From NCBI GenBank assembly GCA_014730235.1, contig WJIO01000337.1, positions 1 to 7,851 of the forward strand: 7,851 nucleotides of DNA. Reading direction: 5' to 3'. Positions 2,110 through 7,842 of the stretch are shown here, piece by piece. The position numbers and the translations under genes are program-made. Below the pieces are notes generated by a model. That model made no database searches, had not been told where the DNA came from, and saw nothing but the letters and a program-made list of their open reading frames with translations. The DNA is from Candidatus Poribacteria bacterium. Lineage in GTDB: Bacteria > Poribacteria > DTPJ01 > WJIO01. Every line of letters starts with the position of its first letter. Positions within the stretch are counted from its first letter, which is position 1.

Positions 2110-4299
2110 GTGGAACGTTTAGCAATCATAAGGGAATATTTAAGAGAACCCGGGCCGGTTGCATGGGGTGAAACTTTTTATGAAACATGGATAGAGAATG
2201 AAGGCTCAGACAGACGCATACAGTTTGCTCGAAGTCAAGCGGCCGAAATGTCCGGAGCCAAGCCTTTTATTAAACCGGGAGAGCTTGTAATTGGAAACAA
2301 TGCCCTTCGATCTATCATTACGGGATTACCATCTCCTTTTGGAACTGGCATGCGCTTTCAGGGACATCATGCGGAAAGCCTTCTGAAAGATTTTCCTGAA
2401 TCCCAGGGTAAAGTTACTGAGATAGAGTCTTTCTGGAATGAGTGGAACTCTGAGAACGGTCAATACGCGCCCATGACCTGCCATGCTTCCCTGGCTTATG
2501 AAATACCTTTGACCCTGGGGTTAGACGGTATGCGGGAATATGTGAAACACTGGCGGGGGATCAATGGACCATCAAATCCGGATTGTATTCCCTGGTACGA
2601 TGCGCTTTTGATAACACTGGATGGTGTTTCTGCCTTTATTGAAGCCCATGCAAAGGCTGCCGAAGAAGCTTCTTTTAAAGCCCAGACTGCTGAAAGAAGC
2701 AGAGAGTTGGAACGCATTGCCGGTGCATGTCATAATATCGCATACAAACCACCCGAAAGCTTCCATGAGGCCGTTCAGCTTTTTTACCTCATGTTCTATG
2801 TATGTGGGCATGATTCCCCCGGTCCCATAGACCGATACCTTTATCCATGCCTGAAGAAAGACCTGGATTCCGGTAATATATCCTGGGAAAAAGCTCAGGA
2901 AATTCTGGACTGCTTATGGCTGAAATTTGAGGAAAAGACGGCCTACGGCGCAACTATCGGCGGACAGTTGAGGGATGGCTCTGATGCTTCCAATGAACTT
3001 TCCCTCATGTGCGTCAGTTCCATAAAAAGGCTTCGTCTTTTATCACCCAGGACGGCTTTAAGGTGGCATCCCGATATATCTCATGAGCTTATGGACGCTG
3101 CCTGCGAATCTATAGCCGAAGGTGCTACCTTCCCTTCTTTGGTAAACGATACGGCCATTATTCCGGCTATGTTGGAAAGAGGTATATCCCTTGAAGATGC
3201 CCGGGAATATACATTTGTGGGATGTGGGCAGACCTTTCCCCATGGTCGCGGGCATGGTAACTATGAGGATGTAGTTTTAAATTCGGTTAAGCCGCTGGAG
3301 TATACCTTGAACGACGGTATAGACCCTATGACCGGAAATCAGGCAGGCCCGGCTACAGGAAAGGCCGAGTCGTTCCATACCTACAGGGAATTTGAGCAGG
3401 CTTATCGCCAGCAGATGGATTACTACATATCCCAGGGCATCCAGAACGCCAATCAACGGCGGGAGAGGATCAAGGATCATGCCTATGATTTCCTGCGTTC
3501 TCTTTTGACCTATTCATGCGTGGAGCGCGGTCTGGACTGGCACGCCGGTGGGGCTGATTGCTGCGAGGGCATGGTGGATATGGTAGGCTTGCCCACAGTT
3601 ACCGATTCCCTCATGGCAATAAAACACAGTGTTTATGAGGAGAGATTACTCTCTCTGGAAGAACTTGTGGATATTATGAATAACAACTGGGAAGGGTTTG
3701 AGAACATCCGTTTATACATGCTGAATAAAGCTCCCAAATTCGGGAACGATCTGGGTGAAGCCGATAGTTTTACGGTAAAAGAATTTAACCGCATTAATAA
3801 TCATATAAAATCCCATAAGACTTACTTCGGCGGGCCCTGGGGGATGGACATAATAGGCTGGTCTGGCTCTGTTATATACGGTCTGGATACAGGCGCGACG
3901 CCGGATGGAAGATACCGACAGGAGGCACTGGCTGACTGCGCCGGCCCGGCCCAGGGGCGAAATATAATGGGATTAACGGCGACTTTAAGGTCGGTATTAA
4001 AGCTTCCTCACAGTAAAACCCACGGCCCCATGGCCTTAAGCCTGCGTTTTCCTGCAAAGGTGGTCGAGGGCAAAGAGGGCAGGGCCAAACTCCGGGCCAC
4101 CATCGAGACATATTTCCGGGAAGGCGGACAGCAGTTGCAAATATCCATAGCCAGCACCAAGGATATGAAAGCCGCCCAGAAAGACCCCGAATCCTACAGA
4201 TCACTCATGGTAAGGGTAGGCGGCTTCAGCGCATATTTCACCCAGTTAGATAAGAAATTTCAGGACGATATGATCGCCCGTTCGGAGCTTGTTATTTAG
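2110..4299 (+). CDS. Glycyl radical enzyme (pyruvate formate-lyase-like), unknown substrate
   Basis: This 729-residue cytoplasmic enzyme belongs to the PFL-like glycyl radical superfamily. The C-terminal glycyl radical loop is intact: RVGGFSAYF at 702-710, with Gly705 as the expected radical carrier. The thiyl loop is GCGQTFPHGRG at 371-381, with Cys372 as the catalytic cysteine. The preceding segment LVNDTAIIPAMLERGISLEDAREY (about 344-367) and the later GATPDGR (595-601), LADCAGPAQGRN and GLTATLRSVLK segments are family hallmarks. It is somewhat shorter than the usual 780-850 residues. Position Cys+2 is Gln374, where glycerol, propanediol, choline and hydroxyproline enzymes have a catalytic Glu. 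This argues against assigning any of those activities, and the lack of a Cys-Cys pair argues against true PFL. Activation needs a radical SAM activase, and none is adjacent. The HTH-repeat gene starts 17 nt after the stop and is probably co-transcribed. The family call is firm; the substrate is unknown. Confidence 0.95.
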   Translation: MERLAIIREYLREPGPVAWGETFYETWIENEGSDRRIQFARSQAAEMSGAKPFIKPGELVIGNNALRSIITGLPSPFGTGMRFQGHHAESLLKDFPESQGKVTEIESFWNEWNSENGQYAPMTCHASLAYEIPLTLGLDGMREYVKHWRGINGPSNPDCIPWYDALLITLDGVSAFIEAHAKAAEEASFKAQTAERSRELERIAGACHNIAYKPPESFHEAVQLFYLMFYVCGHDSPGPIDRYLYPCLKKDLDSGNISWEKAQEILDCLWLKFEEKTAYGATIGGQLRDGSDASNELSLMCVSSIKRLRLLSPRTALRWHPDISHELMDAACESIAEGATFPSLVNDTAIIPAMLERGISLEDAREYTFVGCGQTFPHGRGHGNYEDVVLNSVKPLEYTLNDGIDPMTGNQAGPATGKAESFHTYREFEQAYRQQMDYYISQGIQNANQRRERIKDHAYDFLRSLLTYSCVERGLDWHAGGADCCEGMVDMVGLPTVTDSLMAIKHSVYEERLLSLEELVDIMNNNWEGFENIRLYMLNKAPKFGNDLGEADSFTVKEFNRINNHIKSHKTYFGGPWGMDIIGWSGSVIYGLDTGATPDGRYRQEALADCAGPAQGRNIMGLTATLRSVLKLPHSKTHGPMALSLRFPAKVVEGKEGRAKLRATIETYFREGGQQLQISIASTKDMKAAQKDPESYRSLMVRVGGFSAYFTQLDKKFQDDMIARSELVI

Positions 4300-4316: not shown

Positions 4317-4769
4317 ATGCCAATTCCGAGAAAACGCTGGACCGAAGAGGAAAGAAAATTTATATCAGAAAACTATGAGAACATGACCCGAAAGGAACTC
4401 GCTAAACACTTCGGTGTTTCGGAACATTCCATCGTTCAGCAGATAAGAACCCTGGGCCTGGTGAAAGTGGAAAGGTGGAACGAGAAGCGGGATAAATACC
4501 TTCGGGAGCATTACATTTTTTTGAGCAACAAAGAGCTTGCCCGACGCCTGAAAACCACACCCCTGGCCATCAATAACCGACTTATAAGATTAGGCTTGCG
4601 GAGATATTTCCGCTGGACTCCGAAAGCTGAAAAATACTTAAGGGATAATTACCTGCACAAATCCGATAAAGAAATGGCCGACGAACTGTTGACCACGCCG
4701 GATTCGGTATCCAAAAAGCTGAGAAGAATGAATATTACACGTCCATCAGGAAAGAATGATAAAAAGTAA
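4317..4769 (+). CDS. DNA-binding protein of three tandem Myb/SANT-like helix-turn-helix repeats
   Basis: This basic 150-residue protein consists almost wholly of three repeats with an exact 46-residue period: Trp8, Trp54 and Trp100 each begin a unit. Each unit reads roughly W-x(5-7)-(F/Y)-(I/L)-x(2)-(N/H)Y, then (S/T)-x-KE(L/M)A and a recognition-helix segment ending in a basic, leucine-rich tail. Examples are RKELAKHFGVSEHSIVQQI (25-43), NKELARRLKTTPLAINNRL (71-89) and DKEMADELLTTPDSVSKKL (117-135). This is the bacterial Myb/SANT-like trihelical fold; three in tandem resemble the R1-R2-R3 layout of eukaryotic Myb, by architecture only. There is no effector or catalytic domain. It follows the glycyl radical enzyme by 17 nt on the same strand, so it probably shares its transcript and may regulate it or other local promoters. 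Target and role are inferred. The start is slightly uncertain because the Shine-Dalgarno is unusually close to the ATG. Confidence 0.87.
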   Translation: MPIPRKRWTEEERKFISENYENMTRKELAKHFGVSEHSIVQQIRTLGLVKVERWNEKRDKYLREHYIFLSNKELARRLKTTPLAINNRLIRLGLRRYFRWTPKAEKYLRDNYLHKSDKEMADELLTTPDSVSKKLRRMNITRPSGKNDKK

Positions 4770-4795: not shown

Positions 4796-4868
4796 AGAAA
4801 ATTTTCAAATTATAACCATACTTAAACCGGATGAGCCAAAGTTTTCACGGACAAGAAATTTATGCTTG
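4796..4868 (-). mobile_element. Copy D: solitary arm of the MITE-like repeat
   Basis: Read on the minus strand, this stretch begins CAAGCATAAATTTCTTGTCC and aligns over about 73 nt with the left arm of copy C (7649-7721), with only about seven mismatches. Shared blocks include GAAAACTTTGGCTC, TCCGGTTT, AGTATGGT and ATAATTTGAA. The palindromic core and second arm are absent, so this is a remnant or solo terminal repeat. It lies 26 nt after the stop of the HTH-repeat gene. The short open frame that crosses it (4776-4964) is therefore repeat sequence, not a gene. Confidence 0.78.
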
Positions 4869-5075: not shown

Positions 5076-6062
5076 ATGAATGCATTATCTTTATCTCAAT
5101 CATTTATCATACCAATAAAAGTTATTCGAAATTACCTGATAAAAAAACCTTTGATAATGATATTTGAGGTAACTCTATCCTGTAATGCCAGATGCAAGCA
5201 TTGTAACATAACGGGACATTATCCTGATGAGAAAAGGATGCCTCCTGAAGATTACGGAAAATACATATCAGACTTACGTCCTGCCGTGGTTGAGCTTTCC
5301 GGCGGAGAACCATTGTTGAGAGATGATCTAACGGAGATTATTAGATCCATAAAAGAAAGTGCCTTTCCTCCGTATATTATCCTGGTGAGTAATGGATACC
5401 TTCTTAATCAGCAAAAGTATTTAGAACTGAAGGAAGCTGGTCTGGATATTCTTTCAGTATCCATGGATTTTCCCAATGAGGAACATGATAAGTTTCGACG
5501 GGTCAAAGGTTTATATGCTCATCTTGCGGATATACTTCCCAAATTGTCTTTATACAGAAACAATGATATTGTAGTAAATTGTGCTATATCCTGGGCAAAT
5601 TTACCATATCTGGAAGATTTAGTGCAAAGATGTATTGATTGGAAAGTTAAGGTTTCATTCAGTGCTTATTCTGCATTAAGGACAGGTGATGAAAAATATC
5701 TCATATCCAGTGAAGACGATCTACAAAGACTTCAAGAAACCATAGAAAAACTGATTGCCCTAAAGCGAGAAAGCGGGGTAATAGCGAATCCTACATCTAT
5801 TTTAATTAACATTTACAAATTTTTCAGGGATGGTGGTATACCTGATTGTAGTGCAGGAAAGAGGTTTTTGTTTGTGCAGCCTGATGGTAAACTCAATCCA
5901 TGCGCAATGTTTCGAAAGGAAGTATTTTCAAGCTGGAGAGAGATGTTAAACGACTTTCCACCAAGAAATATCTGTGAGCAATGCTACGTTGCTTGTCGTG
6001 CATACACAGATAGATCTCTATGGACCCAATTTAAGGACTTGAATGAATTTATAAAGTATTAA
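5076..6062 (+). CDS. Radical SAM protein with SPASM-like C-terminal cysteines
   Basis: This 328-residue radical SAM enzyme has CNARCKHC at 36-43 (Cys36, Cys40, Cys43; CX3CX2C) for the SAM-binding [4Fe-4S] cluster. LSGGEPL (74-80) is the SAM amino-group motif, and the TIM-barrel core extends to about residue 240. A C-terminal SPASM-like region follows: Cys258, then 12 residues, Gly271 and four residues to Cys276 (CSAGKR...PDGKLNPC), then ICEQCYVAC with Cys300, Cys303 and Cys307. The last group is CX2CX3C, shorter than the canonical SPASM CX2CX5CX3C, so probably only one auxiliary cluster forms. Such proteins modify peptides or small molecules. Nothing like a precursor peptide is evident nearby, so the substrate is unknown. 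It does not look like a glycyl radical activase. It has its own promoter, and its sequence is visibly AT-richer than the flanking enzyme genes, which may indicate separate acquisition. A later start at Met28 is possible but would trim the core. Confidence 0.9.
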   Translation: MNALSLSQSFIIPIKVIRNYLIKKPLIMIFEVTLSCNARCKHCNITGHYPDEKRMPPEDYGKYISDLRPAVVELSGGEPLLRDDLTEIIRSIKESAFPPYIILVSNGYLLNQQKYLELKEAGLDILSVSMDFPNEEHDKFRRVKGLYAHLADILPKLSLYRNNDIVVNCAISWANLPYLEDLVQRCIDWKVKVSFSAYSALRTGDEKYLISSEDDLQRLQETIEKLIALKRESGVIANPTSILINIYKFFRDGGIPDCSAGKRFLFVQPDGKLNPCAMFRKEVFSSWREMLNDFPPRNICEQCYVACRAYTDRSLWTQFKDLNEFIKY

Positions 6063-6067
6063 AGAAA

Positions 6068-6187
6068 TAGGCTCTTCCGGCTTGAGTGGGGTAAAGATAA
6101 GAAAGTTTTTTATGCTGTCATTCCTGCTTCAAGCTTTTTGAAAAAGCTTGAAGCAGGAATGACAAGCTGAGAGGATTTTCAATACTG
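6068..6187 (-). mobile_element. Copy B: inverted, truncated MITE-like repeat with a 24-bp perfect hairpin
   Basis: Positions 6116-6139 and 6141-6164 are perfect complements of 24 nt around a single G, beginning TGTCATTCCTGCTTCAAGC. The left arm (GGCTCTTCCGG, GTAAAGATAAGAAAGTTT) matches the complement of the right arm of copy C. The right side (AGCTGAGAGGATTTTCAAT) matches the complement of the left arm of copy A. The copy is therefore inverted relative to A and C and loses homology after about 6187. It lies between two convergent genes. The hairpin has no T-run after it on either side, so a classical intrinsic terminator is unlikely, though it could slow polymerase or protect mRNA ends. Confidence 0.75.
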
Positions 6188-7648: not shown

Positions 7649-7842
7649 CAAGCATAAAATTTATGTCCGTGAAAACTTTGGCTCTTCCGGTTTGAGTATG
7701 GTAATAATTTGAAGATTTTCTCACCCTGTCATTCCTGCTTTCGCAGGAATGACAGTATATAGAAGTTTCTTATCTTTAACACACTGAACCAGGAAGAACC
7801 AAACTTTATCGCAATAACACACGGACATAAATTTTATGCTTG
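7649..7842 (+). mobile_element. Copy C: complete 194-bp MITE-like repeat
   Basis: Perfect 23-bp terminal inverted repeats lie at 7649-7671 (begins CAAGCATAAAATTTATGTCC) and 7820-7842. Further in, both arms share GGCTCTTCCGG/GGTTCTTCCTGG-like and GTTTGAGTATGG/GTTCAGTGTG-like blocks. The centre is a 13-bp stem, CTGTCATTCCTGC (7726-7738), loop TTTC, complement at 7743-7755. No open frame is present and no target-site duplication is obvious (flanks CTTGAT and GTTATG). It is the most intact copy in the window. Its left end lies 26 bp upstream of the start codon of the flavin reductase gene, so it may affect that gene's promoter; I see no convincing promoter in the remaining 26 bp. Confidence 0.82.

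Follow-up and report, generated by a model that had tools for sequence, protein, structure and literature searches.

The window, by which we mean the whole stretch of 7,851 nucleotides analysed here, is one complete contig (G000:C279) of a 5.5 Mb draft genome of a Candidatus Poribacteria bacterium. It carries a complete gene for an oxygen-sensitive glycyl radical enzyme (GRE), with the following features:

2096–2100, + strand: GGAGG ribosome-binding site, nine bases upstream of the GTG start (read from the sequence)
2110–4299, + strand: GRE, 729 aa, complete (PF02901, 6.3e-122; PF01228, 2.2e-21)
2482–2484, + strand: His125, equivalent of glycerol dehydratase His164 and HypD His160 (alignment with 1r8w)
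2803–2814, + strand: Cys232-Gly233-His234-Asp235, in the region of HypD Asp278 and glycerol dehydratase His281 (register uncertain by 1–2 residues)
3220–3231, + strand: thiyl loop Gly371-Cys372-Gly373-Gln374 (codons GGA TGT GGG CAG)
3253–3255, + strand: His382 (Cys+10), seen solely alongside Gln at Cys+2 (alignment)
3265–3270, + strand: Glu386-Asp387, Glu386 being aligned with glycerol dehydratase Asp447 (alignment)
3841–3843, + strand: Gly578 in the later half-barrel, specific to Cys-x-Gln rows (alignment) and retained in L064 (G084)
4213–4230, + strand: glycyl radical loop RVGGFS (residues 702–707), with Gly705 as the radical site (sequence, PF01228)

The open reading frame at 2110–4299 is a genuine gene, since its GTG start with the GGAGG site is combined with matches to both PF02901 and PF01228. 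An earlier note on this DNA had described the Gly-Cys-Gly-Gln (GCGQ) loop at 3220–3231, the stretch TFPHGRGHG directly after it and an intact RVGGFS loop, and all three were confirmed in the translation. The C-terminal RVxG[FWY] motif of the GRE superfamily is present as RVGGF at 702–706, and the mid-protein barrel cysteine of the superfamily as Cys372, which aligned with Cys433 of 1r8w.

The activating enzyme of a GRE is usually encoded next to it, but the activase model detected none within the 7.85 kb contig. A radical SAM gene, at 5076–6062, was considered for this role and rejected, as it matches MoaA/SPASM families and is not recognised by the activase model. Elsewhere in the draft genome, two TIGR02494 activases (C371 and C407) scored over the cut-off, one of them adjoining the GCWE enzyme of contig C407. 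As the draft genome has just these two clear activases for about 16 GRE genes (loci L001–L008 and L088–L095), the window GRE is likely activated in trans.

With regard to family membership, none of the NCBIfam GRE models accepted the window GRE at its cut-off. The best model was that of the PFL2/glycerol dehydratase subfamily, TIGR01774 (383.2 bits, cut-off 678.2), followed by those of HypD (NF043068; 367.9 bits, cut-off 1100), the sulfopropanediol dehydratases (NF048009 and NF048011; 348.5 and 329 bits, cut-off 1000) and the choline TMA-lyase CutC (TIGR04394; 294.3 bits, cut-off 1050). Pyruvate formate-lyase (PFL) was far off (TIGR01255; 87.6 bits, cut-off 994.2), and the window GRE has the single Cys372 and no Cys-Cys pair. 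The eliminase motif Cys-x-Glu is replaced by Cys372-Gly373-Gln374. The X-succinate synthases hold fumarate by an Arg at Cys+15 (Arg508 in BSS, Arg492 in MASS; PMC12358834), a position which, assuming a gap-free loop, is occupied by Asp387 in the window GRE.

An AlphaFold2 model built from 26 alignment rows (pLDDT 90.5, pTM 0.91) was closest to the solved folds of glycerol dehydratase, the propanediol dehydratases, HypD and CutC (Z 38–39). The best PDB matches were 1r8w and 5i2g (Z 39.1), and the dehydratases and HypD together gave Z 38.6–39.1 with an rmsd of 2.5–2.6 over 711–714 residues, while succinate synthases (Z 33–36), PFL (Z 29.4) and class III ribonucleotide reductase (Z ~19) were more distant. 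A common fold does not establish the function of the window GRE. The likeness to glycerol dehydratase 1r8w and propanediol dehydratase 5i2g/9rco extends to the entire fold (Z 39; 711 residues at an rmsd of 2.6), the Cys and Gly loops, the His164 equivalent and an acidic residue at Cys+14. However, these enzymes have Cys-Val-Glu instead of Cys-Gly-Gln, the Tyr339 region is shortened in the window GRE, the identity is 28–31%, and the window is devoid of microcompartment and aldehyde/alcohol dehydrogenase genes. The shortening is shared with many relatives: these proteins are only about 700–790 aa long and are largely devoid of the segment that precedes the GGQ strand and bears Tyr339 in glycerol dehydratase. 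In addition, the third-strand active-site aromatic is replaced by Ala278, adjoined by Tyr279. HypD (6vxc; Z 38.6) likewise shares the fold, the His160 equivalent and an Asp near its Asp278, but has Glu436 where the window GRE has Gln374; a genuine HypD-like gene is encoded elsewhere in the same genome (C184, 1095 bits to 6vxc).

To place the residue at Cys+2 in context, 68 GREs from the genome of the window, related genomes, plasmids and PDB 1r8w were aligned. Glu occupies this position in 54 of them, followed by Trp (7), Gln (5), Asn (1) and Val (1). Within the genome of the window alone, Glu, Gln or Trp is found, and a relative from G057 has Asn. The arylacetate decarboxylase of Olsenella scatoligenes (7e7l) resembles the window GRE in its non-Glu residue at Cys+2, which however is Leu instead of Gln, is not accompanied by His at Cys+10 and belongs to a protein of 29% identity. 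In benzylsuccinate synthase, Ser495 is, by numbering, apparently located at Cys+2 of Cys493 (PMC13298812). The premise implied in the earlier note, that Cys+2 is always Glu outside PFL, thus needs correction: Glu is the majority, but Trp, Gln, Asn, Val and Leu also occur. Neither Gln at Cys+2 nor His at Cys+10 was present in any of the nine readable loops of solved structures (1r8w, 5i2a, 9f3w, 6vxc, 9rco, 6lon, 8id0, 8yjo and 7e7l; the enzymes behind them are GD, PD, CutC, HypD, HpsG, two PflD, 9rco and 7e7l), and no report of a Cys-x-Gln GRE was found in the literature searched, which included few subscription papers.

Other loops were observed along the way. A well-supported GRE clade from several genomes has Trp at Cys+2 (GCHW; L024, L093, L025, L082, L020 and L061), and the separate GRE L095, with a GCNW loop, is likewise remote from the Cys-x-Glu rule. 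A GRE on a plasmid of Peptoclostridium acidaminophilum (L099:2623–4992) has the thiyl loop GCVV and Glu in place of the His164 equivalent; it adjoins its own activase and a GntR regulator.

Cys-x-Glu, as defined in PMC7077986 and PMC8473560, is common to all GRE eliminases, in which the Glu touches the hydroxyl group of the substrate and presumably serves as base (PMC8473560, PMC7077986). In HypD, His160 and Glu436 are 2.5 Å apart (PMC7077986). Exchange of this Glu for Gln abolished the activity of IslA entirely (E470Q; PMC8473560), and in HypD the E436Q variant formed the radical with activity being absent (PMC7077986). Since the exchange kills both enzymes, the standard eliminase base cannot operate in the window GRE, and a natural Gln enzyme requires either another base or other chemistry.

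When 84,980 species genomes were scanned with patterns limited to close relatives, one relative was returned, L009, from a Planctomycetota MAG (VGYV01000072.1). It is 61.8% identical to the window GRE over 469 residues, and its loop, FVGCGQTFPHGRGHGNYEDVV (residues 369–389), matches the window GRE in every residue. Because these residues are all identical despite the overall divergence, GCGQ is neither a chance nor a sequencing variant. A second contig of the L009 genome holds a 3' part, probably of the same gene, which is 75% identical to the window GRE, and a genome from the order of the window has a C-terminal fragment of 82–83% identity at a contig end. RVGGFS is retained in the fragments L050 and L064 (G084), and each of the three members has an intact copy of the longer glycyl loop, RVGGFSAYF. 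No further close members were found among 84 genomes of the window's phylum or among 392 sampled Planctomycetota genomes, where G084, the genome of L009, was the only one to carry a member; viral contigs yielded no relative, and plasmids yielded only relatives at about 33% identity or less. The group is rare, yet it occurs across two phyla.

A second Cys-x-Gln type, with the loop GCSQ, was found in the genome and phylum of the window (G000:C88, G059:C635 and G066:C124). It shares with the window GRE the Cys-x-Gln motif, a Lys or Arg at Cys+8, a His at Cys+10, an Asp at Cys+15 and the shortened third-strand loop, but is only 33–35% identical, carries Gly-Cys-Ser-Gln, forms its own branch nearest the Cys-x-Glu forms and is itself uncharacterised. 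The copy in C88 adjoins an aldo/keto reductase and two Gfo/Idh/MocA-like genes (read by eye); these neighbours hint at sugar-like substrates for the GCSQ group and are not safely transferable to the window GRE.

In a tree built without the Cys-loop columns (few rows, long branches and a quick method; an earlier FastTree was also run), both GCGQ rows group together as a clade (support 100, stem length 1.44 changes per column), outside every characterised subfamily represented. The GCSQ rows form a separate clade with a support of 99, adjoining Cys-x-Glu types. Forcing all Cys-x-Gln rows to be monophyletic cost 3.5 log units and was not rejected (p_AU 0.235). The earlier note had proposed to see whether GCGQ sequences cluster on their own, which they do, and had suggested that they may be an uncharacterised clade; the separate clade and the scores below all curated cut-offs agree with this, but a single clade is an incomplete description, as the same genome also holds the GCSQ group. 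With GCGQ conserved in L009 and a second, GCSQ-bearing set at hand, Gln at Cys+2 is, judged from the alignment and trees, conserved, and it goes back to one or two origins. It is probably derived, as the trees place the window GRE among Cys-x-Glu GREs.

A distinctive companion of this Gln is His382. Each of the five Cys-x-Gln rows has His at this position, as against 0 of the 63 other GREs, and in this alignment the pairing of His382 with Gln374 is a new finding. Gly578 behaves similarly: every Cys-x-Gln row with data carries it, and none of the 63 others does. Arg380 at Cys+8 is ordinary, with Lys/Arg also present in 47 of the 63 other GREs. An anionic substrate, which the earlier note had derived from the His/Arg-rich stretch after the loop, was consequently rejected: Arg380 is too common to indicate it, and only His382 is distinctive, a residue that would fit a substitute base better than a ligand for an anion.

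Combining the inactive Glu-to-Gln mutants with the His382 pairing, we propose, tentatively, that the window GRE is an active, uncharacterised, eliminase-like enzyme with rearranged acid-base machinery, the base having moved from Cys+2 to His382. An activase encoded elsewhere in the genome would install the radical on Gly705, from where it would move to Cys372, and the resulting thiyl would abstract a hydrogen atom from a small oxygenated substrate; by homology, we hold this radical route to be highly probable. At this stage, known eliminases use the Glu at Cys+2 to remove a proton from the substrate hydroxyl. Here, Gln374 could act as hydrogen-bond donor or acceptor only, and His382, in the same loop and eight residues beyond, would most likely act as base. 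His382 could be helped by His125, which is retained, and, for the leaving group, by Asp235/Glu386; in the alignment, these eliminase catalytic positions are kept or conservatively changed, and Asp235 (in GHDSPG) aligned with the Asp of shortened-loop relatives. For the outcome itself, we lean slightly towards an elimination-type reaction. A relocated base, with Gln374 as hydrogen-bond partner, would fit the Gln-His covariation, which spans one or two events. For the same reason, as p_AU was 0.235, the pairing could reflect shared ancestry instead of compensation. The absence of an activase beside the gene and of any conserved neighbour pointing to a substrate also speaks against the proposal.

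The best-surviving alternative, which we consider unlikely, is another class of GRE reaction (a decarboxylase, C-C lyase or radical adder), in which Gln374 would hydrogen-bond a substrate carboxylate or carbonyl and no base at Cys+2 would be needed. Non-eliminases do accept other residues there, as the Leu of 7e7l and, by numbering, Ser495 of benzylsuccinate synthase illustrate, the long stem of the GCGQ clade fits a functional change, and the usual third-strand aromatic is Ala278. However, the nearest solved folds are dehydratases, the fumarate Arg of the succinate synthases is Asp387, and no gene for an accessory subunit was seen in the window. Less probable still is an ordinary eliminase in which Gln merely replaces Glu as hydrogen-bond partner and His382 has no special role. 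The fold and the other catalytic positions are indeed like those of known eliminases, and the Glu of HypD is described as a hydrogen-bond partner, not as the base of the ketyl mechanism (PMC7077986), but E436Q HypD and E470Q IslA are inactive, and His at Cys+10 goes with Gln without exception. A catalytically dead or regulatory relative, with the fold retained and turnover lost, is the least probable reading: Gln at Cys+2 copies the inactive laboratory mutants and no activase lies near the gene, but the Cys and Gly loops, which a dead enzyme would be expected to lose first, are among the best-conserved parts between the two phyla, and RVGGFSAYF is unbroken in each of the three members.

Returning to the relocated base, the enzyme may be described as a new rare GRE variant with a base-site change that is lethal in published mutants and that the matched His may explain. 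The earlier note had gone on to expect a different reaction or a different, perhaps anionic, substrate. This reading is partly supported: the GCGQ sequences form a separate clade, and Glu to Gln is lethal in IslA and HypD, while the anionic part found no support. A broader form, in which all Cys-x-Gln/His(+10) enzymes would be a mechanistic class of their own with the proton acceptor shifted from beside the thiyl Cys to a histidine further down the loop, permitting an anaerobic reaction not described so far, is possible, if rather doubtful. Cys-x-Glu serves to annotate GREs as eliminases, and Gln at this position inactivates the enzymes tested. A natural, strongly conserved Cys-x-Gln group with a matched His offers a testable case of how an acid-base role can be relocated. 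It is also a pointer to anaerobic metabolism, still unassigned, in uncultured phyla whose genomes may each hold as many as about 16 GREs.

The gene neighbourhoods were also compared for clues to the substrate, and no neighbouring gene is conserved across the three genomes with members. In the window, the GRE is accompanied by genes for an FAD oxidoreductase, an HTH protein, a SPASM radical SAM protein and an OYE; the G084 member has a two-domain FAD oxidoreductase upstream, and the G001 member has SelA-like, alanine dehydrogenase, URO-D, CysK and M20 genes nearby. A shared FAD oxidoreductase neighbour was rejected, as the window protein and its G084 counterpart show little similarity (BLASTP E 0.31). 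The SelA/alanine dehydrogenase pair was also rejected as a GRE partner, because it is present in the genome of the window without the GRE. This pair has features of its own. The SelA-like enzyme lacks the N-terminal ~65 residues (L050:6642–9016 and L073:395–2852), the proteins of the two loci are 61% identical, and SelA copies of normal length are encoded elsewhere. One genome has the pair immediately behind the Cys-x-Gln GRE, at a distance of 20 bp, whereas in the second genome the two genes of the pair are separated by a copy of the dispersed repeat described below.

Directly after the GRE of the window, positions 4317–4769 encode a small protein with repeated HTH-like WTxExxFxxxNYxxMTxKELAxxF units, and a similar gene (L110:4476–4826) lies downstream of another GRE (C206) in the same genome. 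The window further contains a dispersed palindromic repeat of ~100 bp with the core GTCATTCCTGCTTCAAGCTTTTT...AAAAAGCTTGAAGCAGGAATGAC at 1729–1925, 6063–6182 and 7673–7800, and in part at 4796–4868. Throughout the genome, about 40 places were scored at 89–100% identity and a first look showed 766 candidates; the element is REP/MITE-like.
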